A DNA stretch of 64,000 bases. Source: Cenococcum geophilum 1.58. Taxonomy: Eukaryota; Ascomycota; Dothideomycetes; Gloniales; Gloniaceae. This document shows positions 31,790 to 62,739 of the stretch, in pieces. Both the position numbers and the translations under genes were made by a program. The stretch is from the NCBI GenBank assembly GCA_001692895.1, contig KV748218.1, positions 682,001 through 746,000 on the forward strand, written 5' to 3'. The notes beneath the pieces were generated by a model. The model was not told the DNA's origin. It made no database searches and worked only from the letters and a program-made list of their open reading frames with translations. Positions within the stretch are counted from its first letter, which is position 1, and the number at the start of each line of letters is the position of its first letter.

Positions 31790-34700
31790 AGTATAGAGGT
31801 ACTGCTAGTGTTAATCTTAAAGTGCTACATTTCGCATGCGAAAAGGATAAGGTAAATATAGTAAGACTTAAGAATTTCTTCCGGAAGAATGGTTGCGATT
31901 GCCTAGATATTTAAAATTATCTTCCTACTGTTATCGATTAGGAGCAGCTTAACGCTACTATTTAACTTTTAAAAACTTCCGCTAAGGCGCTAATAGGTTA
32001 TCTATATAATAATTATATAGAGCTAAGCTTTCCTCCTAATTTCCATTTAGAGTGTCTTTACGGCCTATACTAGGTTTAAGCAGCTACTAAGTTCCTTCCT
32101 TTAAGAGATAAGCGCTAGATTATAGATCTATATCTTGTAGGTAGGAAATTCCTATTTTGTATATATAGTAGGCTCTAACTCTAATTATATCTAAATATTA
32201 ACTATAAACTAAAGACAACTATAATTGAAGAGTACTCTTATAAGAAGAAGCCTAATGATAGTAAAATCTACTATAAAATTCGCCAGTACTAATTATTAGG
32301 GAATACGTACTTTAAAGAATAATAGTGGGCTTGTTTGGCCGCTATATCTAACCGGAAAAAGCAGAATCTAAAGCGTATATTAAATCGCCTAGAATATAGA
32401 GCGGCATTTAACTTGTAATTAGATATTCCTAGGCTTAAAGGAGGTATAAGACTAGGTATTATATATATATAGTTTAATATAGGATGTGATAAGGTAAGGA
32501 TTTATATCTAGGCGCTATAAGTTACTAATAATATTTAAATAGCTAATTCTCTGTTATTTTGATTATATTAGGTATATCTAGTTTAAGATCTTTAGTAGTA
32601 ATAGACGGGCAATATAGAAGGTAGATAGAGCTACTGTAATAGCATTAGAGCTTACTACTTTTAGAGCGTATAGTGTGGATACTAGAGCTTTATATAGCCA
32701 GTTATAGCGCGGCCAGATCTTTAGTAATTTTAATAAGTAAAATTGTAAAGTTATATAGAGTGAAGTGCTCTCTATCTCTACTAACCGCTTAATCCCTTCT
32801 TTCTTTAGTTTTTTTAAGGATCTTAATTACCTATAAGGCCCGGCTAACTACGTAAAATGACTAATACTACTATTAGGTAAGGACTCCTTATTCTATACCT
32901 TATAGTAAATATTCTCTAGTATAAACTAGTGGATTAATTAATATATAATCTAAAAGTCCGAATCTAGGTTTGTATTTAGGCTAAGAAGTTAAATAGATTA
33001 AGTAGACCTTAGACGCTAATAGATATAAATAAGTACTATACGCGATTACCTTAAAATCCTAGCGCAGCGTAAAAAGGTAAGGAATGATTTATTAGTAAAG
33101 CCAACTAATAATTTAAGCGAGACTGCCCTATATAAGTTTGCCGCTCTTGCCTACTAATTAGGCTTTAAGTTTAACTAAATCTATAGTTTAATTTAGCGGT
33201 TTACTAATAGGGAGATTGCTTATATAGCTCTATGGGAAGCTAGGAAACTAGACCGCTAGCGATATAATCCTATCGCCTTTAAGGGCTTTATAGAGTAAAT
33301 AGTAGATTTCTTTTCTACCGCTTAAGAGATAATAGAAGAGGAAATGAGAGTTATAGTTAATGTTAATTATTCTAATAGGTTACTAAAGAGATACGGGATT
33401 CTAAAAATTTATAATTATGAATAAGATAAGCTTTTACTATTTCTAGATAAGCTATATACTAATAGGGTACAATCTAATAAGATAACGTTATTTTTTATCT
33501 AAAGATCTATATACCTCGCCTTTTTTAGAAAGCTAAACCGCACTAATATTAACAGTGGTATAACTTATAGGCAAGTATAGATCCCTAAATAGGTAATACT
33601 TAAACGAAAAAGGCTTAAGCGGGAGAGGTAGTAGTAGGCTAAATAAGAGACGCTTAACTAGGAGAGGCTTAAATACAAAAGGCTTAAATAAGAGAGGCTT
33701 AAGTGGGAGAGGCTTAAGTAGGAGAGGCTTAAGCAGGAAAGGCTTAAGTAGGAGAGGCTTAAGCAGGAGAGGCTTAAGTAGGAGAGGCTTAAGTAGGAGA
33801 GGCTTAAGCAGGAGAGGCTTAAGTAGGAGAGGCTTAAGTAGGAGAGGCTTAAACGAGAGAGGCTTGAATAGGAGAGGCTTAAACGAGAGAGGCTCGAATA
33901 GGAGAGGCTTAAACGAGAGAGGCTTAAACGAGAGAGGCTTAAACAAGAGAGGCTTGAACGGGAGAGGCTTGAGCGGGAGAGGCTTAAGCGGGAGAGACTT
34001 AAGCGGGAGAGGTTGGAACGGGAGAGGCTTAAACAAGAGAGGATAGAGCGGGAGAGGCTTAAGCGGGAGAGGCTTGAACGAGAGAGGCTTAAGCGGGAGA
34101 GGCTTGAACGAGAGAGGCTTAAGCAGGAGAGGCTTAAACGAGAGAGGCTTAAGCGGGAGAGGCTTGAACGAGAGAGGCTTAAGCGGGAGAGGCTTAAACG
34201 AGAGAGGCTTGAGCGGGAGAGGCTTAAACAAGAGAGGCTTAAGCGGGAGAGGCTGGAACGGGAGAGGCTTAAGTGGGAGAGGCTTAAGCGGGAGAGGCTG
34301 GAACGGGAGAGGCTTAAGTAGGAGAGGCTTAAACAAGAGAGGCTTAAATAGGAGAGGCTTAAGCAGGAGAAGCTTAAGTAGGAGAGGCTTAAGTAGGAGA
34401 GACTTAAGTAGGAGAGGCTAGAATAGAAAAGGCTAGAATAGGAAAGGCTAGAGTAGGAGAGGCTAGAGTAAGAGAGGCCTAAAAAGGAGAGGCAGCGGTA
34501 GGCTAAGTAAGAGAGGCTTATATTTAAGTAAGAAAGATAAATATAGAAGATATAAGTAAGAAATAAAGAAAAGACTATAAGGGAAGAGTAGGAGAGGCTA
34601 GTAAAAGGATAGAAGCCTCTATTAATAGTAGAGTAGGACTAAAGATAAATTACTTAAATTAACCTAGATAAATTTATAGAACTAGTAGGCTAAGAACTAG

Positions 34701-35290
34701 TAGAAGAAGATTAGGTATTAAAGACTATACCTTAAAATAACTATTAAACACGGTAAGACTAAATAGAAGTTAGTAAAAATACCTATATTATATAGGATAA
34801 TATAAATTCCGTAGTAATAGATACCGCTAACTTAACTTCTACTTCTAACTAAAGGATAAAGACCTAGAAAATTTAAATAGACTTTAAAATTATAGAACGC
34901 GGTACTTAGAGTTTAGTATATAGCCTCCTAGTTAATCCCTTTAAGCTATTAGAGGTAAAGTAAGTAGTAGTAAAGTATATAAGAAAGAGAGAAAGGATAA
35001 AGATATATAATATAAATAAACGTATACTAAGCCCTTAAATATATTTTAAGGATGTTATTGCTAATAGGATAAACACTATACTTTTAATTCCGGAATTGGA
35101 GAGGGATATTATTAACCTTTCCCTTATATCGGGATGACTTATAATTTATACTAAGCCCATTTCTTTAGCATGCTTAGTTTATCTTAGCGGTGGCTATAAC
35201 CGGTTTAGAATATATATAGACTTTTTGCCCTTTAAGATATTATGTTTTAGTAAAAGATAAGGATCTAATAGACCTTTCTCTATTAGAGGG
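31790..35290 (+). pseudogene. DUF3723 gene relic with a coding minisatellite
   Basis: Reading order: VLHFACEKDKVNI and RLKNFFRKNGCDC (31,825-31,905); IIDLYLVGRKFLFCIYSRL (32,116-32,172); TIIEEYSYKKKPNDSKIYYK and IRQY (32,219-32,290); NTYFKE then ACLAAISNRK (32,300-32,360); RAAFNL and LDIPRLKGGIRLGI (32,400-32,460); FSFFKDLNYL (about 32,800). After a gap comes a Glu/Arg/Leu heptad-like repeat (33,605-34,515), and a C-terminal part with KIYNINKRILSP, LIPELERDIINLSLISG and CLVYLSGGYNRFRIYIDF (34,990-35,230). This is the order seen in fungal DUF3723 proteins (PF12520), including the D-L-Y-L-x-G-R-x-F-L-F-C-I-Y block and the RER-rich linker. Function is unknown, but the family is a recurrent Starship accessory gene. 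It is heavily RIPed. A LINE sits immediately behind its end. Confidence 0.72.
33605..34515 (+). repeat. 15-bp coding minisatellite inside the DUF3723 relic
   Basis: About 60 copies of a 15-bp unit of the form gagaggcttaagcgg/gaacg. In the frame that fits the gene it gives a five-residue repeat E-R-L-K/E-R, a highly charged helix typical of the linker of this family. Because the unit is a multiple of three and contains few CA/TG dinucleotides, it has stayed open in several frames, including an antisense Pro/Leu/Lys frame, and these are shadows. The 5' and 3' edges are more AT-rich (ggcttaagta), the centre keeps more C and G. Confidence 0.93.
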
Positions 35291-35294
35291 GAGG

Positions 35295-35312
35295 TTTTTT
35301 TTTTTTTTTTTT
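35295..35312 (-). other. LINE poly-A tail
   Basis: Eighteen consecutive T on the plus strand, abutting the DUF3723 relic on the left and the LINE 3' UTR on the right. It fixes both the orientation and the insertion point of the LINE. Confidence 0.88.
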
Positions 35313-36129
35313 ATATCTATTGTATTATACTACGTATAATACTACGCATGCAGCCTTTAGGCTATGGCGCTATAGTCCTATATACATAAATCCCTTAGGG
35401 CAGCTTAATATGTACTAGTAACTATATCCTAGTAGTTTATAAGCCCCTAAACTAGGGGTTTATAGTTCTTTAGTAAAATACTAAGTTACAAGCAACTACT
35501 AGGGAATGAGAAAATGGTAGAAAACTATAAGAAAATAAGAAATCCTAACGCCTTTCCCTGTCCTTTTGTAATTTATTTCTATCCTTTTACTTACTAATAT
35601 CTCTTTTCTAGGAGCCTAGTAGGAGTTACCTCCTATAGATCCTGCTGTTATTAGCCACTTTCTAGTAGCTATCCCTATCCTACTTAGAAATAGAAAAAGC
35701 GCCTCTCTTCCTTTTTGTATATAAAATAGCTTCTTTAGAGAGAGAGAAGAGCCTAGTTTCTTTTATATTTCTCTTCTTTCTTCCCTATATAGGTTGTAGT
35801 CCAGTAGTAGATATCTAGGGGTTTGTAGTGCTCTATATTCCCTAAAGTATCTACCTTCTTTATCCTCTCCTATTACTTTAGTAAAGGATTTAAAATAGCC
35901 TTTTNNTAGCTTTAGCTNGNAGAAAGCCGATTNTAGCCTTNTAGGATATTTATCCTTAGGGGCTTTAAGAGAAAAGGAATGGCTTCCTTTATAGATCCTA
36001 GTATAGTGTTTTCCTTTATTCTTATTCTGCTGCTAGTTGTTTTTCTACTGTTCTAGTATCTCTTCTCTTGCCGCTCTCCCTATATAGGCTAAGGAGGTAT
36101 AAAAAGATTGTAGTTTTCTTCTAGAAAGG

Positions 36130-36560
36130 CCCTTTTTTGCTAGCTTATTTGCTATTTCGTTCCTATAGATTCCTAAATAGCTAGGAACCTAGTAGAAGTT
36201 AATAGAGATCCCCTTACTAGCTAAATAGGAACAGCTTTGCGTAATTTTAAAGACTAGTTCTTGCCCCCCTATAAGAGAATTAAGCTGTAATCTCTTAATA
36301 GCCGCTTGGCTATCTATAAAGATATAGACTTGTTTCTTTTCTAGTCTTTGTTATTTTAGGTGTTTTAGGGCCCTATAGACTGCATAAAGCTCTGCGTTTA
36401 TAATTTCTATATAGGGTCCTAGATTCCAGTTCGTTGTATATTTAATCCTATTTCTCTCCCCTATTTTATATATAGCAGCTACATTTAATTTATTGTCTTT
36501 AGAGCCATCTGTATAGTATATATCTACTAGGTCCCACTCTAGGGATTCTTATAAACTTTC
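36130..36560 (-). other. LINE RNase H domain
   Basis: The catalytic D-E-D set is readable as TDGSK, NAELYAV and IDSQAA, followed by a helix EIANKLAKKG at about 36,150-36,120 that supplies the usual final region. The domain follows the reverse transcriptase in the same polyprotein, as in Tad1 and I clades. It would remove the RNA strand after first-strand synthesis. Confidence 0.85.
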
Positions 36561-39445
36561 TACTAGTCTTAGATGTTCTTGTGTAGCTTTTTCTTTACTA
36601 CCCCTTGAGATAGAAAAGAATGCAGAGATAGGAGGAGACTACGGTTTTTGCCATTCTAGAGAGATTCTCTCTATTTTCTAGTTTTAAATTAGCTGCTGAA
36701 CTTTAGAGGCTAAAGATAGTAGCTGTGTCTTTGGCTGTAAGAGGTACTTTATAGTAGAGTTTTTAGGGCTAGAACTAGAGCTAGAATTAGCTGCTAATTC
36801 GTCCCTATCTTTGTTGATCTCTTCTATATAGACCTTCTTAATTACGTGGTTTTCCTTGAATTTTAGGATTCTTAATGCGTAGTTATTGCAAAGCTTTTTA
36901 AATCTAATTCTAGGAGGAGGAATAGAGGCTTNGATCTCTACAGCTTGGCTAGGAGATCCTCTAAACGCTCCTAGGACTAGTTTTAGGGCCTTGTTTTGTA
37001 GAGATTAGTACCTATCTAGTAGGTAGTCTCTAGATTTGCTTTTTTACCAGCATTGTATACCGTAGTTTACTATAGTGGTAATGTAAGCTATATAGAGCTA
37101 TCGTAGGGCTTGTAGAGATAGACCTCTTTGTATATTACCTAGTCTTCTAATTAAATAGAAGGCTGTTTTTGCTTTAGAGATTTGTATTTCTATATGTTGT
37201 TTGAAAGTAAGCTTAGAGTCTAGAAATACCCCTAACCACTTAACTAGGGGTTTAGGAGATATTTCTACGTCTCCTAGCTTTAACCCTTCTTCTATAGTAG
37301 TGCGTTTACTATGGAAGTGTATAAGCTCTGTTTTGCTAACGTTAAAACTAATAGCAGCTTCCTTAGCTTTAGATATTAGTTCTAGCGCTATTCTCTCTAG
37401 CTTTTTATAATTAGACTTAGCTGAATTTGAGGTAACTATAATTGCAAAATCGTCTATATAGCTAAGAGAGTAGGCTCCTTCTGTTTGTATGCTGCAGATA
37501 TTGCGTATGTATAGTAGAAATAAAATAGGGGATATAGGCGATCCCTGTGGTATCCCTGTTTCTAGTTCTACTTTTTCTTNTATTTGCCTATTAAAGGANA
37601 GCTNTAGCTTTCTATTGCTAAGGAAAGTAGCTACCTATTGTGTAAACGCTATAGGTAGTCCTAGTTCCTTACAGATAGATAAAAGCTGGTTTTTAGAGAC
37701 ATGGTTAAAAGCCCCTCTTACGTCTAGGAATAACATAGTGGCTATCCTTTGTCTAGCTTTTTTCCTACTATTTTTAGATTGGATATTATTTAGGAGTAAT
37801 AAGACTGCGTCTATTNCAGACCGCTGTCTTCTTCCTCTTAGTTGAGAATCTTGAAGTAAGCTAGTAGTACTAGCTAGATATCCTAATCTAGTAGCAAAGA
37901 TCTTTTCTAAAGTCTTTCCTAGGCAGTTTAGTAAGGAGATAGGTCTATAGGACTTTGGTAAGGAATAGTCCTCCTTATTTNCTTTAGGGAGAATAACTCC
38001 TTAAGCTTCTCTCCAGACCTTTGGCTGATAGCCTAGGATAAATAAAATCCTATAGATTCTATATAGAAGATCTTCTATAGTAGGGTAGGCCTTTTATAGA
38101 ATTGTAAAAGATATCCCATCTGGTCCTGGAGCCTTTTTATTAGAGCTAGAGAAAATTGCTTGTTTGACTTCTATTTTCTCTAGTTCTGGCCATTCCCATT
38201 TATTGTCTATTGTATAGTCCTTCCACTCCATAGGGCTAGTAGAAGGGGGGGGTTTAGGGAATAGAGTAGTTGTAAAAGCTTTANACTGGTCCTNGAAGCT
38301 TTCTACTAGTCTAGTAGCCCCGTCTTTGCTATACTGTAGACTAGGGATTATTCGTAATGTTCTCTCCTTTGTATATTTTAGGGCAGTAAAGACTTCCTTT
38401 CCTTATGCTTTTTCTAGGAAGCTATTCCAGCAGCTAGTCTTAGCTTCTCTTATTGNGTGGAAGTATTGATTTTTGGCTTCTTTATAGGCTTCTAGTCTAG
38501 AACTTCTAGTAGGTTGTTCTTTTTAAAGTCTTCCTAGTTTTGCCATTTTTTGTCTTTTCTTTAGAAGCTCTTTATTCNACNATNGTTTAGAGAATTCGNA
38601 GGTTNTAGATCTAGGGATAGCTTTCTNTNCTNNTAGCTTTATACCTCTAGTAAGATCTATTACTAGATTATCTACTAGTGTACTTAAGCTTCTATCCCTA
38701 GGTCTATAGGAATCTTCTAGAGAGGCTAGGGGACCTTTTTCTCCTATCTCTATATAGGGGTTTTCTCCTACTAGTTNTTNTAGTACTAAAAGTTTCGCTT
38801 CTAGTTCTAGCCCTAGAACTTGCTCTTTTAAAGAGGTAGAGAAGAGCTCCCAGTTTGCCTTTTTTATAGAGAAAGGAGTTTCTTNAAGAGGGTTTAGGTA
38901 TCTTTACGTCTCTCTAGTAAATAAAGAGAATGCTATAGTCTTATGGTTAGATCCTGTTTCTTCTATTATAGTCTAATTATCCCAGGTATTTTCTTGGAAG
39001 TTTCCTAAGTAGAAGGCTAGGTCTATAATAGACTTTTCCCTTATATTAGATCTATAGAAGGTCCCTTCCTATTCGTCTGAATTTAGTAGTTGGCAGTTAT
39101 ATTTGTCTAGCCAGTCTACTAGTTCTTTAGCCTCCCTAGTTAGGTTCTTAGCTAGCGCGTTCTATTGTTTATAGTATAGGTTATAGTCTTCTATTAGTAT
39201 AAAAGGGAGATCTATTTCTAGTTCTAGAATGGCCCTAGAGATTGTAGTTATACTACTTCTTTAGGTTCTAGAGTTTTCGTCTAGTTGTCTCTCATTATAG
39301 ATGTTAAATAGTAGAAATCTTTTAAGTTGGCTATAGATTTCTAATACTATAATATCTGTATCGTTGCAGATATCCTCCCTATTTCTATATTGTAGAATAC
39401 TAGAAATAGTTTTCCTTATATAGATAGCTACTCTAGGTCAAATAG

Positions 39446-41055
39446 CTAGATTACCCTGAGCGAGAGGATTAAGGTTACAAACCCTGGCAACGATGTTGGA
39501 ATAGAACAAAGTAGGACACTTTTTGCTCTTTTTTGCTCTATCCTTATCCAGGTACCTAGGCTGCTTGTACTGAAGAATGAATATCTATTTTTTTTCCTAA
39601 ACTCACTAATTTTCTAGTAGGGGTTTGCTGTACTCTGTCTTTTATTCCTACATTCGATGTTCATATACTAATGCAGAATTTCCTCCCCGCTAGTTTTAGA
39701 ACCTAGCAGAGAATGACCTCCTTCCTTCTCCTTATATACGAGAACTTCTAAGGCTTATACTACAGTTGATATACAATTAAGCTTGAGCTGCTTTCAAAGA
39801 CTCGCAGTCTTTTGCTACTCATGCAAAGCTTGTTTTATACAATCATCGGCTGTACAACGAGGGGATAGGTGTGCTTTGCAAGGTGCGTTCCTCTATTCAT
39901 AAATTCACAAGTAAGAACCACGAAAGTGGTCCTTAGATAAAAGGTATACCGCTGGGGCACTCAAAATCGGATGCAAGGCCTTGGTTAGTAGCATCTAATC
40001 TCTCATACTAGCCAATATTGTTGGCACTTGAATACGTGTATAGTAGGCAGAGACCACTTCTAGTGCTAATTTCAACTACCTTTGCAGGCAGCTACCCTCT
40101 GCAATTAGGATTTCCTTCTAACTTAAAGGGATTCCCTGTCTTTTCCTCACATCAATTTTCTACTAGCCGAAAGACTCATAGGATCCAGCGAACCCTACAG
40201 TTTTCGTGCGATTCTATCTTCTTTTCCCTAGCATACAGAGCATTTATCATAGGACATGGCGTGAACATCCCTGTATTCACTGATATAGGACTTTATCGAA
40301 GAGTCTCTACATTCTTCTTCTTTTAGAAAGTTTTAAGCCTCCTTCTCACTAGGAAAGCGGGAGAGATAGGGACTATCTATATATAGCGCTACTACCTAAG
40401 CCTAGCGGCTATCTAGTTCTATTTGTTCCCTTGCTAAAAGAGGAAAAGAGCAGTTAATGTAAGCCGATTTCCATTTAGTGTTTAACTCAAATACCTTACA
40501 TGTAGATCCTCTGTAGTTGCGAAGAGAAATATCTGATTTCGCCATAGTTCTAGCCCTTTAGTACAAGACAATAAAGGCTTCACAACATTATAGAGATTAT
40601 GTATAGAATTTATGTTAATTGACTTGATTTGTAGAGAAACAGACATCTAGAAGGCCTGGTCCTCTTTGGTACCCATAAACTAAGGTACTACGTCTCCTTG
40701 TACTTAGTAAACTGCTTCTTTTTTATGCGCTCTAAGTAGAGACACTATAGCAGGTACGAGCTAGTAGCGAGAATAAGTAGGGGAGATAAGGAGGAGGGGA
40801 GCCACTAGTTAGAACTAAGTGAGACGAAGTCACAAGCTTAAGATAGAACAGCTTAAGGATTAAAATGCCTAATCAACCTACAGTATGTGTTTTCTCATAT
40901 ATATATACAATAAGGACTGATTAACACTCGAGAACTATACAATTCAGACAAGTAAGGAGATTGCTAAGGATCTATCTAGGAGACGCAACTAAAAAAACTA
41001 TAGAAGAATTTACGGTAAAGAATTATCGCGCGATAGTAGGAAATAGAAACTAGAG
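39446..41055. other. Non-RIPed segment of unknown nature, left of the assembly gap
   Basis: Composition changes abruptly at about 39,445: CA and TG dinucleotides become normal and the TA excess weakens. The only open frame of note is 40,018-40,326 (102 codons, plus); it has no recognisable domain, and its start lacks support. TGTTGGAATAG at 39,493 looks like a possible LTR start, but no partner is found. From 40,730 to 41,055 the sequence is purine-rich with a TATATATACAATAAGG word at about 40,900 that could be a promoter. I cannot assign a gene. Confidence 0.35.
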
Positions 41056-41080
41056 NNNNNNNNNNNNNNNNNNNNNNNNN
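41056..41080. other. Assembly gap (25 N)
   Basis: Exactly 25 consecutive N. Sequence character differs on the two sides, so the two flanks may not be truly contiguous. Confidence 0.97.
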
Positions 41081-42433
41081 CCTCGAGTTTTCTGTTATTT
41101 TAGTTTACGTCGTCGGGCATACGTTTTATCCCTCTGTCTTTATCCTAATTATTTATGTGTTTGACCTTAGATTCCCGGGATATTATCCTTTAATACCTGC
41201 ATCTCGAAATACGTCAGATATCCCGGGATCTTGTGGATTTTTGGTTGTTTTGTATGCCTTCTCTTTTTTTGTCCTAATTATGAGGGATTACTATTCGGTT
41301 GCGCTCGATAATTATTCCTCGTTTTTTGGCGATTTAAGAGGGAATATCTGGCTGTTTTTGATCTAGGAAATTTTTAATGCGTTGTTCTTCGGTTAATGTT
41401 GTGTTTTTAGGTTGCGTAGTTTTACGTGGTTTTTTTGGCAATTTTTACGTGATTTTCTATTTAATTTCTTTTTTTTTTGTCTTTGTTCTCTATGGTTGGA
41501 CCGTGCTTAGTTTTGGGCAGTGGTGTGTAATTGCGTGTTATCTGCGGGTTATATTGGTGTCATAGTTGGGTTTCTTAAGGCTGTAGTGGTGTGGGTTTTC
41601 CGTAGTTGTCCTGCTGCCCGGGGCACTTATGGTTATAATATTATGATTATTTTTTTTGTGATTGTATTTGTTGATAAGTGGTTAATAATAGTTGGAGTGG
41701 TGAATTCTTTCTTTTGTGTTAGTTTCGGGGTTATTTGTTCCTTTTTAGTTGAGTTTTGCTGTTTTGCCTTTTCTTTCGTTTCCTTTCGTCCGTGTTTTTC
41801 TAGGTAATGTGCGAGTTTGGTTATGTGTTTGGTTCTTCTGAGTTTGTATTTAGTTTGATTCCTTTATTATACTTTTGTGGTCTTGTTCTGTTTTTTCTTT
41901 GTGATTCTGTTGTGTGGGGAGCCGTTATTCGGGATTGTGGATGGTTTCGTTTTATTTATTTATTTCCGGTGTTTTTTTTCTTTTAATTTTGTATTTGTTT
42001 ATTTGAGTGGATTCCTTTTATTATCTCCTTTTTTGCTCATTATTTCTTTAGTTGGTGTAATTATTATGAGTTGCTTATTTATTCGTGTTCTTGTTTTTAT
42101 ATTGTGTTCTATTTTTAGATAGATGATTTATGTGGCATACTTTAGAGGAGTTGTTGTTGTTGCTTTTTTTTTTGATTGATTTGGATTTCCGGTTCTTGTT
42201 ATTATGCGTGAGTTAAAAGATTTTTATTTCTTTAGTGTATTTTTATATCAATGTTATTATTTTTCTGCTCTATAATGGATTTCTTGGGGCCTGGAGAGGG
42301 TATTGATGGATTGTGGCCTGGGTTGATCTAGAGCATGTGATAGAAATTCATGAGTGTGTGTTGGGTTTTATTTTGTTTTTGTGTTTTGTTTATGGGTTTT
42401 TGCTACGGTTGTGATTGAGAGTGTTGGAATGGA
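41081..42433. other. G+T-skewed block, origin unknown
   Basis: From about 41,380 to 42,430 the plus strand is extremely rich in T and G and poor in C and A, without the TA excess of the flanks. Three overlapping hydrophobic open frames (41,377-41,565; 41,520-41,807; 41,877-42,122) result from T-rich codons and have no domain or conserved motif. At 41,167-41,232 there is an imperfect inverted repeat around CCCGGG (attcccgggatat and atatcccgggatc). Strand asymmetry of this kind is seen in organellar DNA and in some repeats. It starts at a gap and ends exactly at a LINE fragment. Confidence 0.5.
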
Positions 42434-51560: not shown

Positions 51561-52235
51561 CAAATTGGTTTAATTGCGACGCGCTCTACTTAGGCTAAAC
51601 ATTATTAATCTTGTTGGTTCTTTGCCGCTTTGGGCTGTCGCTGCGATATAAGCTTAAGGCGGGTATATTCGTGGGAAGGGATATAGCGCACTTCCGCTTT
51701 AAAGGAGCTAGGTATAGCTTTAAATCGTCATTAGGCAGAGGAATTAAGAATGTAAGATTAATACGCAGAAGCAAGCCATAAGCTAACGCGATCGTACTAA
51801 GGTATAGAAGGAGGACTTTCTAAGTCTATTATTATGGGTATAAGAGTTATTAGAAGCCTAGTTATTACATAACGCTAGGTTGCTTATTATTATATAGCGG
51901 GTGCACTTATTACAAAACTTATATTAAGCTATTCATTAATAAAATAGGTTAATTAATTAATAATCTTATTTTAAGGTTAATTAACCTTAGACCTAGGGCC
52001 CTTAGGCTTAGATAAAGAGGTTTATAATATACGTAACTTATATATATAACTTATACACAGTTTACGCCTCTAGAGAATATAGATTATCTAACAGCACTAG
52101 CGTTAAGCGTCTATTGCGGAGGTGTACTACTACGTATATTACGCTCCGTATCGTTATTAGAATATAGGGTAGTAAACTCTAGTAAACGCGACCTTAAAGA
52201 CTATAACTACTTAACTATACTGTTAAGTAAATATC
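51561..52235. other. RIP-degraded stretch left of the large inverted repeat
   Basis: At 51,945-51,990 ggttaattaattaataatc and ttaaggttaattaacctta form a small AT-rich inverted repeat. No gene seen. Confidence 0.3.
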
Positions 52236-53966
52236 TATAGAATTCGCCATCTTATAAGAGTCTAGTCGGTGTAGCTCGGCCACCCTCCCTACTAGCGGGG
52301 GCGAGTTTAAAGTATTTTACGCTTTAATTACCTGCTATAAATACCGCTAATTATACCGCCGCTAAACCCGTTCTACGCTAAGTAGAAGTATAGGCGTTAG
52401 TAAATAGTAGCCCCGCAGCTAAGCGAACTGCTTAGACTTACCTTAGGTAGTAGTCTTAGCAGTAAGCTTTACCTAAAATAGTTAAGCGCCATACTTAGAT
52501 AGCTATGTAAGGAGTGCCACTATAGCCTAATCCGTAATATTCTGTAAAGCATTTTATATAAATCGCCCTAGCTCTAACTAAGTACCTATACTATAGATAG
52601 ATAGAGCCTATATATAGACCATACCTTATAATTTAATATTAAATCTATATATATATTAGTTACTCCACCAGATTTTCTAATACAAAGTTGTTTATATAAC
52701 TCGTACGTTAAGCCTCTGTCTTATTATATAGTCACTTTAAATTAACCTAACTCTAACCCTCTTATACTTGCTATTTATACTAGTTGGCCTAATAACTAAT
52801 ATATAGTACTCCTTAACATATAATCTATCCCTATCCTTAATTTTACTCTTATTCTTATTAAACTTCTTCCTAATAATAGTATATTATTCTTTATAAAGAT
52901 CCTCGCCCTCCTTAATATTATACTATATCTATCCTCTTTTCTTTCTACTAAAATCTAAGATAGTATAATATTTTCTATCTAGTCCTATTATACAATCCCA
53001 AAACCCCCTTATATTAATAATTAATACTAGTCCACGCTTCTTAAGCTGGAGGTTATTAATCTAATTAACTATGCTAAAAGGGATATCTATAAACTAAATA
53101 CCTCTATTATATGCTATTTATGACTATAATAGCACATGCCGGGTTTTATATCCAATCGGCTCTATCTTATTATTAAACGCCTGCCATAGGAGATTCCTAT
53201 AAAGGTACTACTAAAAGATACCATAACTGCTTTAATACTTTAGAGCGCCTATAATACGGGCCTCTAACCTAGATATTATAATAGATCTATTAGTCTTCTC
53301 TAAAAGGTCACGCTTTAAGTACTCCTTAGAAAGAAAGTAAATAAATTCTATAGTACGTTTGTAGCCTAATTAGAGAAGCCGGTTTAGGAAATTTAGATTA
53401 AGTATAAAGAACTTTCTTTAAAATAAGCTAAAGAGCAAAATATACAAGTTAGGAAGATATTAGTCTATTAAATATTTTTAAGCTCTTACCTTTTTAGTCT
53501 AGTAAGGTTTTCGTAGTAAATCCCTTTACCACATTCTTAGTATATTTAATTAGCACTAAAATAGATAATTTATTATAACAAAATCCTTTCTTATATTACC
53601 TATACTTGCGTATTAAGCCGAGCCTTCTCTATATTATTGTTAAAATTATCTATATTGGCGCTAATATAGAACCGCCTACCTAAGGCATCTTAAATAAAAA
53701 CATACTTAGTATTTACGTTCCGCTTAAGGAATCCCGCTTTTAAATAGATAGCCGAAGTTATAGCGATTGTATAGTAAGCTAAAGAGAATACCTCTTTTAT
53801 ACGCCTAGATTCGCGTTTCTAATCTTTGCTATTATACTTATATTAAATTATACAGAGTGAGTCAATCTAGAGGTATAGTATATAAAGTTCTTAAGTCACT
53901 TTAATAGCGTCCTAAAAAGTCTTTGGTAGGTTAAAGATACTAAATCCTCCTAGCCGTCGGCTAATA
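52236..53966 (-). repeat. Large inverted repeat, left arm (1.73 kb)
   Basis: It pairs with 57,643-59,379 in opposite orientation. Matching end words are tatagaattcgc (52,236) and gcgaattctata (59,379) on the outside, and tagccgtcggctaa (53,951) and ttagccgacggcta (57,643) on the inside. The match includes a HET-domain relic and about 450 bp beyond its 3' end. Arms are nearly equal in length. Differences are mainly transitions. Confidence 0.9.
52680..53966 (-). pseudogene. HET-domain protein relic, left copy
   Basis: On the minus strand the reading parallels that of the right copy: RNANLGV at about 53,815, SLSGT near 53,720, NAxLG around the Val-Phe-Phe segment, then GWAE-like tail blocks to 52,680. 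The N-terminal HET motif (L-S-H/Y-x-W-G) is not found; the repeat ends before it and the sequence beyond 53,966 differs from the right copy. HET proteins trigger incompatibility or cell death on meeting a mismatched partner in ascomycetes. The copy is broken and not expected to work. Confidence 0.7.
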
Positions 53967-55054
53967 TATCTACCTTAGAATTGAACTCCCTAAGCCTAAC
54001 CTTTAGCTTGCCTACTGTATGGAGCTAGGCTCGTATACGTATATTAGCGCCGTATTGCCTATAGTTTAAATATCTTCTAAAACGCTAGACAGTTATTCTA
54101 CTACCCTAGGCCGCTAATAAATTGTATCTAATAGGGCCTTTGCCCGCGCTAAATACTTTATACTATACTTTTTAATTGGCTCCGCGGTTACTAGGTAGTA
54201 TATTAAGTCTTTAATTAACCACTAGTGCTTTTTATTTAGCTTATATAGTACTATATTAACCCTCTCACACATACTTAAGCCTTTGACGTACTGGGTCGGC
54301 TAGTTAGGGTCAGTGGTGCGTCGTTTTCTCATTAAAGAGGTTGCGTCGGCCTAGTTTGGGGTAGGACTCCGCTACGTGCGACGTCTCGACGCAGAGGCCG
54401 AATTTATTGATTTCGGCGACCCCATCTTGTTTATGAAGGTTAATTGGCGTTCCTGCAACTTATTAGGGTATAATTTAAGGTTGTAATGAAGCAGCACATA
54501 CTTAGGGAAAAGTTCAGATATTTGTATAGTAGAGTAAGTTTACAGCTTAGACTATAGATTCACGAGCTAACCAGAATGGTTTAGCGCGCCTTAGCGTACG
54601 TGAATTTCCTATAGTCTAAGGTAGCGAAACAGCCTTAAACGTGATTTTGGTGGAGCATAATAAATGTAGTTAGTTAGCTTGCGGGCTGATTGAAAATCTA
54701 TACCACTAGAATTACGTCTAAGCTTGCTAAGGTAAGCGTCTAAGCTTGCTAAGGTAAGTAGGCAGCAGCTAATTAAACTGCCCCGCCTTCGCAAACCCTA
54801 ATTATCGCATTAACCATAGTATTAAAGCGCAACTAAAGTTAAGACCTATTAGCCTAGGAGTTAACATATTATTATCTCTATTAGCCGCAGCTAAACTTGT
54901 TCCGATAAGTCAAGATATATAAAAGGATAGATAGTTTAAGGTAGGTATTAATAGTAACTAGACAATATTACTTTAGCTAATAGTATAGGTATAGAATGTA
55001 AATGTTCCTAGAGTATATTCTAGATATTCTACTAACATACTTAGTTATAGGAAG
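53967..55054. other. Spacer between HET arms, left part
   Basis: 53,967-54,300 is RIP-degraded. 54,290-54,640 is noticeably GC-richer (gtcggctagttagggtcag, gtgcgacgtctcgacgc) and less RIPed. A 21-bp tandem duplication (gtctaagcttgctaaggtaa) lies at about 54,716-54,757. No gene recognised; the open frame at 54,609-54,794 (minus) overlaps this duplication and is unsupported. Confidence 0.35.
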
Positions 55055-56773
55055 TAAGTAGACCTGCGAATACCAATATATATAGCTACTGCTAACCTTA
55101 TCCTATTTGTTAGTATAGGAAGTAAGTAAACCTACGAATACCGATATATATAGCTGCTGCTAACCTTATCCTATTTATTAGTATAGCTTGTAAGTAGACC
55201 TGCGAATACTAATATATATAGCTACTACTAATCTTATCCTATTTATTAGTGTAGTATATAAGTAGACCTGCAAATACCAACATATATAGCTGCTGCTAAC
55301 CTTGTCCTATTTATTAGTATAGAGAGTAAGTAAACCTACGAATACCGATATGTGTGGCTGCTGCTAACCTTATCCTATTTGTTAGTATAGGAAGTAAGTA
55401 GACCTACAAATACCGATATATATGGCTGCTGCTAACCTTGTCCTGTTTATTAGTATAGGATATAAGTAGACCTGCAAATACCGACATATATAGCTGCTGC
55501 TAACCTTATCCTGTTTATTAGTATAGCTTGTAAGTAGACCTATAAATACTAATATGTATAGCTGCTACTAACCTTATCCTGTTTGTTAGTATAGGAAGTA
55601 AGTAAACCTATAAATACCAATATATGTGGCTGCTGCTAACCTTGTCCTATTTATTAAAGTAGCTCGTAAGTAGACCTACAAATACTAATATGTATAACTA
55701 CTGCTAACCTTGTCCTATTTATTAGTGTAGGAAGTAAGTAAACCTATAAATACCGATATATATAGCTGCTGCTAACCTTGTCCTGTTTATTAGTATAGGA
55801 TATAAGTAGACCTGCGAATACCGATATATATAGCTGCTGCTAACCTTGTCCTATTTGTTAGTATAGCTTATAAGTAGATCTGCGAATACCGATATATATA
55901 TAGCTACTGCTAACCTTATCCTATTTATTAGTATAGAATATAAGTAGACCTGCGAATACCGATATATATAGCTGCTGCTAACCTTATCCTATTTATTAGT
56001 GTAGGAAGTAAGTAGACCTATAAATACCGATATATATAGCTGCTGCTAACCTTATCCTGTTTATTAGTATAGGAAGTAAGTAGACCTGTAAATACCAACA
56101 TATATAGCTGCTGCTAACCTTGTCCTATTTATTAGTATAGCTTATAAGTAGATCTGCGAATACCGACATATATAGCTGCTGCTAACCTTATCCTATTTAT
56201 TAGTGTAGCTCGTAAGTAGACCTATAAATACCGATATATATAGCTACTGCTAACCTTGTCCTGTTTATTAGTGTAGTATATAAGTAGACCTGCGAATACT
56301 AATATATATAGCTGCTGCTAACCTTGTCCTATTTATTAGTATAGGAAGTAAATAGACCTGCGAATACCGACATATATAGCTGCTGCTAACCTTATCCTAT
56401 TTATTAGTATAGATTGTAAGTAGACCTACAAATACCAATATATATAGCTACTACTAACCTTGTCCTGTTTATTAGTGTAAAATATAAGTAGACCTACAAA
56501 TACCAACATATGTGGCTGCTGCTAACCTTGTCCTATTTATTAGTATAGAGAGTAAGTAGACCTGCGAATACTAACATATATAGCTACTACTAACCTTGTC
56601 CTATTTATTGGTGTAGGAAGTAAGTAGACCTACAAATACTAACATATATGGCTGCTGCTAACCTTGTCCTATTTATTAGTGTAGGAAGTAAGTAAACCTA
56701 TAAATACTAACATGTATAGCTGCTGCTAACCTTATCCCGTTTATTAGTGTAGTATATAAGTAAACCTATAAAT
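55055..56773 (+). repeat. 68-bp satellite array, about 25 units
   Basis: Each unit reads like aagtagacctgcgaatacc, gatatatatagctgctgct, aaccttatcctatttatta, gtatag plus a variable 4-6-base joint (gaag, cttg, tata, ctcg, gaga). Copies start every 68 bp from 55,055 to 56,773, with rare 2-bp insertions. Variation is nearly all C/T and G/A at the same positions in many units, with little indel change. 68 is not a multiple of three and no coding role is evident. It lies at the centre of the spacer between the two HET arms. Confidence 0.95.
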
Positions 56774-57642
56774 GTCTCTTATATGCGACCGCTTAAACCA
56801 GTACTAATACGAGTGTAGCACGGCAGCTAGTGCTATACCTTTGATAATAATTTTGCTCGAGATTTCTTTAAAAGCTTGCCATCAAGCGCACTTCTAAGCC
56901 AGCTTGCCCCAGCCTAGTACTATACCTACTATAGTTCCATTATAGCTACTAGCTACATTATTAATCTTTCTAAAGTCCGTGCTGCTAAAAAAAGTTATTA
57001 GCTCTGCGCTCTACTCCTCTGTACGCTTAAACGCTACTGCAATGATAATAAATCAAATGTTTAAATAGTTAGAGAACGGTCAGCACTGAAAATAGGAAAG
57101 GGGGGGCCGCGTATTCTCCGGTTGTGTTCTAATTCACCTACATGATTTATACTACTTCGCGCATAGCTTTATATAGTTAGAAAACGGTTAGCATTGAAAA
57201 TAAGAGAGTAGGGGCAACGCATTCTCCGGTTGCATTCTGATTTAGGTTAGTATCTTTAACTCCTTATATATACTAGGCAGGGCCATTACTCACTACATAT
57301 CTTTGCGTATAGAATATTTAGCTAATCCTAATAACGGCATCTAGATCAGCTTCCCAGTCTTACCTAAAGCTAAAAGTCCTACATAATTTACACTACTTCG
57401 CGTATAGCTTCGTTAGTGTAACAAGTCCCATAATTACAATAAGCACCATATTAAATCCAATACAGTATTACCGACAAGACTCCTCTATATCAGTGATCCG
57501 GATAATCTAGGTTATAATCCTAATGTCTTGCGTCTCGATTTTACCGCGTAAATAGACGGAAGAAAATACATCGCTTTATCCCATTACTGGGGCGAACTTC
57601 CAATTAAAGATAAGAAACAGTTTTATACGACCTAGGATAACA
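56774..57642. other. Spacer between HET arms, right part, with a tandem duplication
   Basis: At 57,066-57,172 and 57,176-57,245 a segment beginning agttagaraacggtyagca and containing cattctccggttg is repeated. The trailing words tacactacttcgcgtatagc appear at 57,150 and again at 57,388, so two to three degenerate units of roughly 110-120 bp are present. The last 180 bp (57,460-57,642) belong to the N-terminus of the right HET relic. Confidence 0.55.
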
Positions 57643-58930
57643 TTAGCCGACGGCTAAAAGGATTTAGTATCTCTAACCTGCCAAAGACTTTCTAGGACGC
57701 TATTAAAGTGACTTAAGAACTTCGTGTACTATACCTCTAGATTAACTTACTCTATATAATCTAATACAAGCACAATAGTAAAGATTAGAAACGCGAATCT
57801 AGGCGTATAAAAGAGGTATTCTCTTTAGCTTACTATATAATCGCTATAACTTTAGCTATCTATTTAAAAGCGGGATTCCTTAAGCGGAACATAAACACTA
57901 AGTATATTTTTGTTTAAGATGCCTTAGGCAGGCAGTTCTATATTAGCGCTAATATAGATAATTTCAACAACAATATAAAGAAGGCTTAGCTTAATACGCG
58001 AGTATAGATAATATAAGAAAGGATTTTATTACAACAAACTATCTATTTTAGTACTAATTAGATATACTAGGAATATAGTAAAGGGATTTACTACGAAAAC
58101 CTTACTAGACTAAAAAGGTAAAAGCTTAAAAATATCTAATAGACTAATATCTTCCTAACTTATATATTTTGCTCCTTAGCTTATTTTAAAGGAAGTTCTT
58201 TATACTTAATCCAAATTTCCCAAACCAGCTCCTCCAATTAGGCTATAAACGTACTATAGAATTTATTTACTTTCTTTCTAAGGAGTACTTAAAGCGTAAC
58301 CTTTTAGAGAAGACCAATAGATCTATTATAACATCTAGGTTAGAGGCCCGTATTACAGGCGCTCTAAAGTATTAAAGCAGTTACGGTATCTTTTAGCGGT
58401 ACCTTTATAGGAATCTCCTATAGTAGGCATTTAATAATAAGATGGAGCTAATTGGATACAAAACCCGGTATATACTATTATAGTTATAGATAGTATATAA
58501 TAAAGGTATTTAGTTTATAAACATCCCTTTTAGCATAGTTAATTAAATTAATAACCTCCGGCTTAAGGAGCGTGGACTAGTATTAATTACTAATATAGGG
58601 GGGTTTTGGGATTATATAATAGGACCAGATAGGAAATATTATACCGTCTTAGATTTCGGCAAAAAGAAAAGAGAATAGATATAGTATAATGTTAAAAAGG
58701 GTGAGGATCTTTACAAAGAACAATATACTGTTATTAAAAAGAAGTTTAATAAAGACAAAAGTAAGATTGAGGATAGGGATAGATTATATATTAAGGAGTA
58801 TTATATATTGGTTGTTAAGCCAACCAGTATAAATAGCAAGTATAAGAGGGTTAGAGTTAGGTTAATTTAGAGTAACTATATAGTAAGATAGAGGCTTAAC
58901 GTGCGAGTCGTGTAAACAACTTTATACTAG
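57460..58930 (+). pseudogene. HET-domain (heterokaryon incompatibility) protein relic, right copy
   Basis: The reading contains the HET signature YIALSHYWGELPIKDKK (about 57,568-57,620), NISRRLKGFSISNLPKTF (about 57,638-57,692), DAIKVT, ELRVLYL, INLLYII (the usual L-W-I-D-S-L-C-I-I block, 57,730-57,765), ESRRIKEVFSLAYYIIAIT (about 57,800-57,850), AGFLKRN (57,870), QERILL (about 58,015; the W-x-x-Q-E-R block), TIYFSTN. A C-terminal part of several hundred residues follows, to a stop region near 58,915. Motif order and spacing match the HET family (PF06985). Proteins of this kind act in the cytoplasm in non-self recognition. It is broken by many RIP-type changes. The part from 57,643 on is duplicated in inverted orientation at 52,236-53,966. 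Confidence 0.85.
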
Positions 58931-59379
58931 AAAATCTGGCGGAGTAACTAATATATATATAGATTTAATGTTAAATTATAAGGCATGGTCTATATATAGG
59001 CTCCATCTATCTATAGTATAGGTGCTTAGTTAGAGCTAGGGCGATCTATACGAGATGCTTTATAGAACATTATAAATTAGGCTATAGTGCACACTATATT
59101 CTCACGTAGCTAGTACTTCACTATTCTAGGTAAAGCTTACTACTAAGACTGCTGCCTAAGGTAAGTCTAAGTAATTTTACTATGCACCCAGCTATAGGGT
59201 TTATTATCTGCTAATACGCGCACTTTCACTTATATAGCATAGGACGGGTTTAGCAGTAGTATAATTAGCGGTATTTACAGCAGGTGATTAAAGCGTAAAA
59301 TACCTTAAACTCGCCTCCGCTAGTAGGGAGGGTGGCCGAGCCGCACCAACCAGACTCTTATAAGGTAGCGAATTCTATA
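57643..59379 (+). repeat. Large inverted repeat, right arm (1.74 kb)
   Basis: Partner of 52,236-53,966. The outer 450 bp (58,930-59,379) are non-coding downstream DNA of the HET relic, shared with the other arm, including agggagggtggccgagc near 59,325 (left-arm partner gctcggccaccctcc at 52,277). Confidence 0.9.
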
Positions 59380-59624
59380 GCTGTTTTTAGAGAGTTAAGT
59401 TAGTTAACCAGAGGCATGGCCAAGGTTTAGGTCGCAAGGCTATGGGGCTAAGATTGGCCCGCTTACTAAGTCTGTGTATAGCTATAGGCCTGCTAGCTAT
59501 AAGCTTAGCTTACTAGATAATATAAATAAATTATATAATAATGATTATATAGGACGTGCGGGGTTGTTTCGCACTAGCTAGAATCGGTAATTACTTTAAT
59601 TGGAAGTACTAACTAGAGTAGCGA
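59380..59624. other. RIP-degraded stretch with a dispersed-repeat fragment
   Basis: 59,475-59,522 (tagctataagcttagcttac) matches 50,032-50,083 (tagctataagcttggcttac) in the same orientation, so a short dispersed repeat is present at both places. No gene seen. Confidence 0.4.
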
Positions 59625-59996
59625 TCTTATATAAATTTGCGCGTAATAGCAGGTATAAAGCTAATAATGATTTTATATTATCGTAATAAGGCTCTAAGGC
59701 TCGGATACGACCCTTATATATATATTATAAGTAGTAAGAGCTTAATAGTGGTGCTATAGTGAAGGGACATTATTTCGCTATAAAAGAAGGCTCTAAGCGA
59801 ATTGGGCGAGAAGGTAATAATGCGAATGTAATTTATAGGTTAGAAAAGTCCTAAATGTTTAAAAGTAGCCATAACACACTATTTATAGATAATTTTAGTA
59901 AAGCTCGACGTGTGCGCAGAGTTATAGTCGCTTAAAGTCAAAGTACCCCTTATATTTTCCAGCACGGTTAGTTTTCCGGCACGCGTAGAGGGACGT
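59625..59996. mobile_element. MITE copy B, left end missing
   Basis: Matches 19,665-20,014 of copy A in the same orientation, sharing tcgtaataaggctctaagg, gtaagagcttaatagtgg, cgcagagttatagt, cttaaagtcaaagtacccct. The right end ACGCGTAGAGGGACGT is followed by TA (59,997). The left third, including the left inverted repeat, is absent, so the copy is truncated. Confidence 0.72.
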
Positions 59997-60735
59997 TACC
60001 AAGATTATTTGATATTGCTGTTTTGAAAAACTTGCTTAGAAAGAGATTAAAATAAAGATACAAAGGCTATTAAATCATACTCCGCTTAAACCAAAGCCAT
60101 GAAATCAGAGTACGTGTTTATAGAAATTTAAAGCCTTTAGCTAACTGGCTATAGGCGCTTTAAAGGATATAAATTCCACCTGGAAACACTTATAGTACTT
60201 AGGCCTTATTGGGCCGTCACTATAGTACATTGCTGCTAAAAGCATATATAAAAATAGCCGACTCCTATAAGGCTAGAGTTTCTAAATCATTTACGCACTA
60301 GAGTAAAGGAATCGCTATATATACTAGATTCGAATTTTAAAGTTAATAATCTCCATATGGAGTATAGGAATTCGTCATTTAACTTAGGGCTTGGCATTTA
60401 GCCCCCTTTAAAAGTTTAACTGGGAATATCTTAGAATTCTTATATAGTCCGCACTAAGCTTAAGCGCCTATTATAGAGCCGCCTTTAAAAAAAACCCCAA
60501 CTAATGGTATAATATTAGAGAAGAAGAAATAATATCTATAAAACTTGAAATTAAAAAATATAATAAGTGGTATAGAAAAGGATAGTATTTATAAGGAGAG
60601 TACGCAGGATATTTTAGCTAGGGGTAGGTAAAGATAATACAATCCTAACCACTTCTGCTTTATCCCGCCCCTCTATACCTACTTTCTATATAGTATATTC
60701 TCTAAATTAAATCTTTATATAAGTCTACTAGAAGC
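59997..60735. other. RIP-degraded stretch, no gene recognised
   Basis: No coherent reading and no repeat seen. It lies between the MITE and the 3' end of the patatin-like relic. Confidence 0.3.
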
Positions 60736-62700
60736 AGTTGTTATTATTTAAATACGNTACNGCTTNCTTAGGAGAGTATNNNATANGGATAACCTCTTCC
60801 GCTTNCNNTNGTCTGCCCTACTAAAGGNAGCATCTANACCTTAAGCGGCTATTAGGTTCTCTATTAAGAAAGGCAACCTACTAATATTATAAGGCTTGGC
60901 GTCACCTTCCTTTAGAGATATTATAAATTTCCTAAAAGTATCTAGGTCGACTCGTTTCTGGAAGTTCCTATTTTTACCTATAAAGGAAGTATTATTAAAT
61001 GTTCCGGGAATCAGCCAATCATTTATTAAAAACCCGGCAAAGTTATTTACTAATTTACTTAATAGGGCTCCAAAGGCTAAATCACTACGTGTTATTAAGT
61101 ATAGAATATATCCGGTAACTATATACTTCCTATTATATCTCTCTAGAAGAGAGTCTAATTCAAAATAAAATAGAGATATAATTATATAGCGTACTATAGT
61201 ATTAATCCGGGCCGATAGGGAGTAGTCTATTTTAACTTTTAATTTAAGTTTAGGTATACTTCTCGTATTATTAAGTCTTGGTTTAGTAGTATTAAAGTCG
61301 GTACTAAGGCGGTAAATTTTATTAAGAATTTAGACCGCTAGTCTAACAGTTTTATAGGCCCGTCTTACCGTTTTATTACGCATTTTCTCTAAGATTAGAT
61401 CACGTGTTCTAGGGAACATTCTATTTTTCTAAATACTATAGCAGTTATCTATAGATACCTTGTAATTTTTTGGCCCTAACTTACTAGTACCTAGAGATAT
61501 AATAAAGTTAGGTTCTTTAATAAGTAGAAATATTACTAATACCTCTAAAAGCGCCTAGAGTAGAGGGTTATTCTTAAGGAGTCTTATATCTTAAAATATG
61601 CCAACCTTATTAATATATTTTGGCGGAAAGAAACTATAAAGTATAGTTAGTTTTAGGCATAAAAGAGGTAAGCTAAAGTATACCCAGGCGCTGCAGATGC
61701 GGATTATGTACTAAATTTTATGTTAGTCTTATCTAATAGTAGGGTTTGTCCAATCTTACATTTCCTAAAGCGGCACTCTTCCACAGCCATCCTTTGGCCT
61801 TATAACGGCGTTATCTTTAGGTTTATTAGATAACTCTTATACTAAGTTATATATAGGGAGCTTACCTTAGTCTTTGTCCCGTATACCCACCCTATTATAG
61901 TTAGTAAATATATAATATAATAGATAACTACTAACTATAGCGACTGGCAAGCCGATCTTCGTTCCTATAGACGTTGTATAAAAGCAGTCTAGAATGCTTT
62001 TATCTATACTAAAGACTTCTTTTAGGACGGACTTAATATTTTAGGCTAAGTATAAACCGTTAGTAAAATATAATACTATTAACTTAAATGCACGGGAAAT
62101 AAATGGGATATTAAAAGCCTTTTACCGTTTAAAGACACGTTCTGCAATCTTTAGGAATATCTAGATGGACTTTTTAAGGGGCCGTCCCTTAATATAATAA
62201 TCTATGGCGATTACCGCTCTTTAAGTTATAAGTATTAACTCCTTTTCTTTAAAGTATATAGAGCTCTTACCTATACTAACCCTAAAAGCAACTTTAATAA
62301 ACCGCTAAAAGGGAATTGGTAGACCGACACGATCTTGTATTTATTTCATTAGTATTAATAATATAATACCCTATGTACCTCCTCTATTAATATATAAGAC
62401 TCCTACTCCTATAGTTAGAGGGTATACTTTTATAATTATATCGTTCGGCATCTCTTCTCTATAGAGAAAGCAGTGGCGTACTTTAAAGATCTAGGGGTTA
62501 TCCTTATAGCGATCCCTAAACACTATAATGTAATTCTCGCAAATATAGTGCCCGTAGGGTAAGCAATACTGTGGTCTCCTGCGCAAACAAGATAGATATA
62601 TATTGCTGCTCTGTATATAGCGCTATCTATCTTAGAATTATATAATAATTCTTCTTCTTTAATTAACGTCTGATACGGATGCTATCTAGCCCTATGCAGA
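60736..62700 (-). pseudogene. Patatin-like phospholipase relic with Cys-rich N-terminus
   Basis: Minus-strand reading from N to C: a Cys-rich segment (LVCAGDHSIA-like, CENCIIVFRD, HCFLYREEMPN; 62,620-62,450) resembling the zinc-knuckle or RING-type stretch often found before the patatin domain in fungi; VYPLTIGVGVLYINRGG (about 62,430-62,375; the S-L-D-G-G-G-x-R-G oxyanion block); IQDRVGLPIPF, FIKVAFRVSIG (about 62,340-62,265; the G-x-S-x-G nucleophile region in mutated form); AFNIPFISRAFKLIVLYF (about 62,125-62,070); SVLKEVFSIDKSILDCFYTT; GTKIGLPVAI; FTNYNRVG; GKLPIYNLV; INKVGIF then LLKNNPLL (about 61,625-61,575; the D-G-x-L-x-x-N-P catalytic Asp block); NFIISLGTS (about 61,530); then a long C-terminal part to LDTFRKFIISLKEGDAKPYN at about 60,900. 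Patatin-like proteins hydrolyse lipid acyl esters. About 620 codons, RIP-broken. Clustered Ns lie in its last 80 bp. Confidence 0.8.
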
Positions 62701-62739
62701 CTACTCCGTACACAAGGGAAAAGTAATATTAATGGGAAA

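Follow-up and report, generated by a model that had tools for sequence, protein, structure and literature searches.

Starships are giant DNA transposons that are moved by a DUF3435 tyrosine recombinase, the captain, located at their 5' end, which recombines a short core of the element with the same core in the target site. They are usually recognised as living elements through the comparison of isolates. In the excerpts of the literature available to us, genes for DUF3723, ferric reductase (FRE), patatin-like (PLP) and NLR proteins are described as the Starship accessory set (PMC12506042), the nesting of Starships and their degradation by repeat-induced point mutation (RIP) have been reported (PMC12506042, PMC12257634, PMC12289983, PMC12153272), and captains may share as little as 15% identity (PMC12257634). 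One of these excerpts already mentions multi-copy Starships and their degradation by RIP, and notes that each Starship of A. fumigatus is, with few exceptions, single-copy while some other species accumulate copies (PMC12153272). Another describes ToxTA, a Tc1/Mariner transposon with TA duplications that rides inside the Starship Sanctuary (PMC12506042). Here we examined a 64,000-nucleotide stretch of the fungus Cenococcum geophilum 1.58 (contig KV748218.1, here C43, positions 682001-746000; hereafter the window), which a first-pass annotation had read as the fossil of one or more Starships. We consider it probable (about 0.86) that the region is part of a RIP-killed Starship, here termed E1, into which smaller transposons were later nested.

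The genome comprises 177 Mb in 162 contigs, and the analysed surroundings of the window extended 200 kb to its left and 50 kb to its right (a 314-kb stretch overall); negative coordinates run leftward from the window start, 0 being C43:682000. Through genome DNA searches with six segments taken from the window and the DNA to its right, E1 was found as dispersed, near-identical copies in at least eight places of the genome, this copy included, the seven others lying on C36, C61, C39, C2, C18, C28, and C11. The element is at least 70 kb long and includes window 14.9-47.6 kb and 60.0-64+ kb; the distance between its left end and the final base of the match is 70.5 kb in C2 and 77.0 kb in C36. All six segments were present in a single order in C36 and C2, five of the six in C61, C39, C28, and C11 (one displaced in C39; C28 and C11 rearranged), and four in C18. 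In these searches C11 was without a match to the patatin segment and C18 without one to 14.9-21.6 kb, and in C39 the 15-21 kb piece was displaced by 140 kb and inverted. The order in C36 and C2 was left arm, DUF3723, and then the right arm reversed relative to the window, with L031 (C43:746001-756000) ahead of the patatin segment. The patatin segment was likewise reversed in C61 and C39, and C18 showed the same relation with its whole copy in reverse; with 35 of 108 candidates scored in its genome search, L031 had at most short weak matches in C61, C39, and C18.

It was noted that E1 copies differ mainly by RIP-type transitions, and they were therefore very alike when RIP struck. Seven short copy comparisons together gave 359 transitions against 12 transversions; the longest, C39 versus C18, contained 177 transitions and no transversion over 1774 sites, and the remaining six (110-499 sites) held 182 transitions and 12 transversions. 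The window itself is AT-rich, with CpA/TpG depletion over nearly all 64 kb (weakest at 40-44 kb), and its two HET relics differ at 136 of 1448 sites, in every case by a transition and never by a transversion. From this depletion and this transition-dominated divergence, it was confirmed that RIP has marked nearly the whole window, as the first-pass annotation had proposed.

The genes carried by E1 were then compared with the Starship accessory set. The DUF3723 relic reported previously was recovered at 31894-32493 and 32546-33526 (+) with PF12520 E-values of 1.0e-30 and 2.7e-47, and its two pieces hold 13 and 25 in-frame stops. The corresponding segment is near full-length on C36, C61, C39, C11, C18, C2, and C28, and split on C1. 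A ferric reductase lies in the E1 right arm outside the window at 71.0-72.1 kb (+), where FAD_binding_8 scored 28.3 bits, above its cut-off, and two complementary pieces of Ferric_reduct scored 22.0 and 18.2 bits, both below theirs. The right arm also carries a DUF7492 gene at 68.4-67.4 kb (-; 134.6 bits). DUF3723 and ferric reductase are thus both present among the Starship accessory genes, with the patatin-like gene added by eye. The patatin segment occurs on C39, C18, C2, C36, C61, and C28, and at 76% on C26, so that DUF3723 and patatin segments travel together on six other contigs (C36, C61, C39, C2, C18, C28), with the ferric reductase in the same element; the earlier suggestion of a fossil Starship is supported by this. 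It is highly improbable that no giant element existed and that unrelated DUF3723, patatin, and HET relics merely lie side by side in a RIPed, transposon-rich compartment. It is true that the HET genes, a long interspersed nuclear element (LINE), and two other inserts each arrived by an insertion of their own, and nearly the whole 64 kb is RIPed, but the presence of both segments on those six contigs, and their common arrangement on C36, C61, C39, C2, and C18, contradict such a chance assembly.

The patatin-like relic proposed earlier (62418-60850, -) was assessed by eye, and GGGxRG-like, GxSxG-like, 'FTNYNxVGxRD', 'SAAPGY', 'xNNPL', and 'SLGT' motifs were found in order, 'SAAPGY' in another frame, a pattern which we take to be that of the patatin family. 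Pfam, NCBIfam, and PADLOC returned no patatin match, PDB none for one of the two pieces, and tblastn against a patatin from a distant genome nothing useful; among 65 PF01734 matches in the genome, none was a copy of this segment. A patatin-like identity is likely but unproven. A ferritin-like relic at 23.5-23.0 kb (-), also named earlier, can likewise be recognised by eye and had no Pfam match. Downstream of the DUF3723 pieces, a 15/30-bp tandem array at 33636-34493 repeats AGG-CTT-AAG-TAG-GAG, which reads R-L-K-stop-E (RLKxE) in one frame; it may have given the DUF3723 protein a coiled-coil tail, and its stops would fit RIP of CAG.

The left end of E1 was located outside the window. Sequence common to C2 (L042), C36 (L040), and C43 begins at GGTAGTTAYAGACC, at about -22250, 22.2 kb left of the window. 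To the left of this point C2 has unrelated DNA, whereas in C36 and C43 E1 adjoins the long terminal repeat (LTR) of a high-copy retrotransposon, which is cut in both at an identical position; the search with L026 was dominated by LTR retrotransposon matches. The left side of E1 is therefore an insertion boundary with differing flanks (C2 versus C36/C43), and the first 4 kb inside it are collinear and of the same length in C2 and C36 as in C43 to within about 1 bp. GGTAGT stands at the E1 left end, in the LTR target, and in C2, and because the LTR itself has GGTAGT at the place of the cut, it is a candidate recombination core. Ahead of the LTR, C36 and C43 do not have the same bases (15 were compared in C36), a thin hint that E1 arrived twice and independently at this LTR site.

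Directly inside this boundary lies a DUF3435-like relic, with an ATG at -21671, about 580 bp from the E1 left end, reading inward (+) to about -19676. The relic matched PF11917 with 15.9 bits (E 0.0066), and in a scan of the 314-kb stretch a captain hidden Markov model (HMM) built here placed it at the top of 318 frame pieces, with 13.0 bits against 2.2 for the next. By eye it shows DFRAEGL preceded by an H turned to Y ((H->Y)DFRAEGL), followed by TFNNYYIPNN, which we liken to the HxxR...Y of tyrosine recombinases. C61 keeps the DNA of its 3' part and beyond, with 63 transitions and 2 transversions relative to C43 over 499 sites. A PDB search with one captain piece gave nothing useful. The identification as a captain is based on a sub-threshold profile match in the right place; if it is correct, the gene would be the first at one end of the element and read inward, and we infer that it was the captain that moved E1. 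The captain and the element end, both unseen in the window by the first-pass annotation, would thus appear about 22 kb outside it and well inside the 200 kb for which that annotation had named the absence of any captain as a refutation; subject to the score below the Pfam cut-off, this refutation fails.

This left end also bears on whether the block was copied by ectopic recombination among repeats, as a segmental duplication without a Starship captain. Repeats and rearranged copies abound in the genome, E1 is shuffled in C39, C28, and C11, and the right boundary was not located, all of which would suit such copying. The precise boundary on the left, flanked by DNA of two different kinds and with a DUF3435-like gene directly inside it, the collinear left 4 kb in C2, C36, and C43, and the known Starship gene set argue the other way, and we regard segmental duplication as improbable.

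We further assessed the distribution of DUF3435 and DUF3723 across the genome. After merging, there were at least 95 DUF3435 loci (PF11917; 100 of 346 candidates scored) and 64 DUF3723 loci (PF12520). Seventeen of the 64 DUF3723 loci lay within 60 kb of a listed DUF3435 locus, compared with 4.1 expected (P ~4e-7), an expectation that assumes even placement and is a generous null, both genes lying in the repeat-rich compartment. The two genes were convergent in 14 of the 17 pairs. Family A comprises five pairs with gaps of 10195-10263 bp (C9, C45, C5 twice, C52) and genes facing each other, and family B two pairs with a gap of 30714 bp, to which three further pairs, having a captain of the same kind, can be added at 28.9, 30.8, and 39.1 kb. 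These constant gaps are a stronger argument than the pairing statistic, and at least two further multi-copy families with DUF3435 and DUF3723 occur besides E1. Family A is possibly a short Starship family with captain and DUF3723 near opposite ends. On C62, C21, C16, C35, and C5, window 11.4-12.2 kb was also observed to recur at a distance of 48-56 kb from the DUF3723 of family B.

Several observations weigh against E1 as a captain-driven Starship. The PF11917 score of the relic (15.9 bits) is below the curated Pfam cut-off of 25.8 bits, only two of the four relic pieces submitted were matched, one contained in the other, and the locus had first been chosen by the captain HMM, so that the PF11917 match is partly dependent on it. 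The relic was missed by tblastn with captains of other subfamilies, part of those queries being on the wrong strand. No E1 captain was found among the DUF3435 loci listed (100 of 346 candidates scored), and because of this the pairing statistic gains nothing from the E1 copies. The patatin identity was read by eye alone, one to three transversions were present in five of the six E1 comparisons of more than 250 sites, and E1 is rearranged in C39, C28, C11, and the window copy. The right end, flanking direct repeats, and an empty E1 site were not found in the sequence compared, which came from this one isolate; C39 and C18 stay alike for about 1.6 kb beyond the break of the window copy, to the end of the compared sequence.

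The region, which the first-pass annotation had read as Starship-like cargo, is not one continuous cargo block. It proved to be a mosaic of Starship arms, a LINE, a pogo-type transposon, a 32.7-kb insert, and an inversion, with the following features in the window.

1-14894: right part of E2, a 32.7-kb insert in E1; C36 uninterrupted here; 29-bp direct repeat
14895-22189, plus strand: E1 left arm, segment S1; copies on C61, C39, C2, C36, C11, and C28, mostly 90-92%, pieces down to 82%
22190-22493: short insert, about 300 bp, with further copies in the genome (query 172-480 matches); C-rich duplication ccccccctac at its flanks
22494-29300, plus strand: E1 left arm, segment S2; copies of 88-91% on C11, C61, C36, C39, C2, C18, and C28; ferritin-like relic inside
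29294-31584: self-similar region resembling a minisatellite; at 30.5-31.6 kb, tandem arrays with 70-86-bp units
31600-35290, plus strand: E1 segment S3, DUF3723 relic (PF12520) and tandem-repeat tail; DNA copies on C36, C61, C39, C11, C18, C2, and C28, partly on C1
35295-44246, minus strand: later insert with a reverse transcriptase (RVT_1) at about 38.1-37.3 kb
44300-47551, plus strand: E1 segment S4; copies on C11 (to 47551), C28, C36, C61, C2, C18, and C39 (to 47472)
47550-59998: nested 12.4-kb pogo/Fot1-type DNA transposon with terminal inverted repeats (TIRs), TA duplication, and DDE_1
48492-49151, plus strand: DDE_1 transposase relic (PF03184, 5.5e-13, 49.3 bits)
52212-53980, minus strand: HET relic, copy 2, inverted (PF06985, 7.7e-8)
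55041-56773: 68-bp tandem array between the HET copies, 25 copies
57561-59402, plus strand: HET relic, copy 1 (PF06985, 3.7e-8)
59999-62645: E1 right arm, inverted relative to C36, C2, C61, C39, and C18; patatin-like relic inside
62646-63678: 1.03-kb high-copy insert with the 15-bp duplication CTTAGAATTATATAA
63679-64000: probable E1 right arm, inverted, running into C43:746001-756000, judging from the insert at 62646-63678 and an L031 match from base 1

The largest of the later insertions is E2 (C43:664166-696894, -17834 to 14894), bordered on both sides by the 29-bp direct repeat GTARCATAGACCTACGCTAATTTTRGTAT. It is a nested insert because C36 runs uninterrupted across its site, from -17835 into 14895; in this empty counterpart, L039 1-419 corresponds to -18253..-17835 and 391-500 to 14895-15004. 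The matches of seven other places (C61, C2, C36, C11, C31, C44, and C28) all begin at precisely 14895, and that of C39 begins at 14905. No captain was found in E2 by eye in the inward frames at either end, nor by the local captain HMM. The right 1.7 kb of E2 is common to C26 (0.6 kb to C14), and this homology stops just past the same GTAA. In the insert at 35295-44246, RVT_1 scored 100 bits (E 1.9e-28), the non-LTR (LINE) type was judged by eye, and copies of its parts at 84-95% occur in L009 and L010. C36 and C2 are without it, the flanking E1 segments being 46 and 66 bp apart there, and the whole insert is presumably one LINE from end to end. Copies of the E1 piece at 59999-62645 on C39, C18, C2, C36, C61, and C28 (88-91%) and on C26 (76%) all break off at 62645.

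The two HET relics reported earlier were confirmed by PF06985 at 34.2 and 33.2 bits (cut-off 22.5). Their earlier placement as direct Starship cargo did not stand, as they form an inverted pair within the nested 12.4-kb transposon. This element has the TIR ACGTCCCTCTAYRCGTGC at both ends and TA at 47550-47551 and 59997-59998, which with the DDE_1 transposase relic are the marks of pogo/Fot1. The pair is a single gene present twice, in inverted orientation (52212-53965 and 57642-59402, 88% alike). Relatives of the two transposon ends were found outside the E1 copies, among them C8:2807204-2819291 and C18:1907238-1916131; the C8 relative has nearly the same length as the 12.4-kb element, which suggests that the HET pair moves with the pogo-type transposon. 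Separately, a HET gene piece without stops was observed at L023:5125-5379 (C43:627125-627379), in a part of the left flank that RIP has spared. At 19652-20016 lies a 365-bp copy of the pogo-type right end, resembling a miniature inverted-repeat transposable element, with many genome copies in both orientations. Rfam gave no match at gathering scores, and Pfam none on one frame piece of 25-27 kb.

The reversed E1 arm could be traced from 59999 as far as C43:756000, and another pogo end, the inverted counterpart of the one at 59998, lies at L035:3436. If the reversed arm reaches L035:3436, recombination between the two pogo ends would explain the inversion, inverted transposon ends being a usual substrate for such events. 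Within a Starship interpretation, two E1 copies could also lie tail to tail (14.9-47.6 kb and from 60.0 kb rightward), with no inverted arm. The window order, left arm (+), pogo insert, and inverted right arm, would accommodate this, the view rightward being 50 kb, but in these 50 kb a DUF3723 profile built here found nothing (the profile is weak, scoring the window copy at 24 bits), tblastn with E1 captain pieces found nothing better than E 0.7, and self-comparison gave short repeats only. With these results and the available inversion substrate, we hold the tail-to-tail arrangement to be unlikely, though the least unlikely of the alternatives considered. For the single, partly inverted E1 copy that we prefer, the history would be that E1 jumped to at least eight places, that RIP then mutated its copies, that the pogo-type transposon with its HET genes, the LINE, the 32.7-kb insert, and small repeats entered this copy, and that recombination between the two inverted pogo ends flipped the patatin/ferric-reductase arm.

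Four positions were rejected as element ends, and one stretch as part of a captain. Both 62645 and 22494 proved to be insertion points of small repeats with target duplications rather than element ends. The E1 left end was not at 14895, with GTAA/TTAC as direct repeat, since C36 runs across this edge of E2, nor was the right end at 59994, where C39 and C18 continue alike. Window 47.5-48.2 kb, matching the C49 captain locus, is not a captain 3' end and belongs to the pogo-type element. In the right extension of E1 in C39 and C18 (L037/L038), a 79-89% relative was noted at C43:523031-524723, 158 kb left of the window, perhaps another related element.

In a genome where each family has many RIPed copies, a single assembly would suffice to derive ends, target sites, and transposition bursts, and such a genome shows the effect of genome defence on giant transposons. 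Tentatively, and somewhat short of an even chance, Starships may have acted here as high-copy transposons: at least three families, about 100 DUF3435 loci in 177 Mb, few transversions, and more than one E1 landing at the same site in an abundant LTR retrotransposon, with RIP freezing the burst. If so, this genome would be a fossil record of Starship invasion and target choice. The scale may be what is unusual here; no report of a comparable Starship burst was found in the literature searched, which was available in part and did not extend to the two founding surveys.

Plain Fot1 elements are about 2 kb long. The nested element shares DDE_1, TIRs, and the TA duplication with pogo/Fot1, but at about 12.4 kb with an inverted HET pair it is far longer. 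With described Starships, E1 shares an inward DUF3435-like gene at one end, DUF3723, a ferric reductase, a patatin-like relic, and large cargo; it differs in having at least eight RIPed copies in one genome, and its right end and direct repeats were not found. RIP-attributed divergence or composition is also described for the Limos-like copy of Fusarium falciforme, Frontier, and GtA of Gaeumannomyces (PMC12257634, PMC11905480), but GtA is a single element per strain, and the excerpts covering the Limos-like copy and Frontier describe no dispersed family. The nearest parallel to the nested element is Sanctuary with ToxTA, where a TA-duplicating TIR transposon with host-type cargo is likewise nested in a Starship (14 kb for ToxTA against 12.4 kb here), as far as the available excerpt describes it (PMC12506042). 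The present case differs in that the cargo is an inverted HET pair and a DDE_1 relic is kept. Parallel to ToxTA in Sanctuary, this suggests a second level of cargo, in which HET self-recognition genes are carried on a pogo-type transposon inside a Starship.

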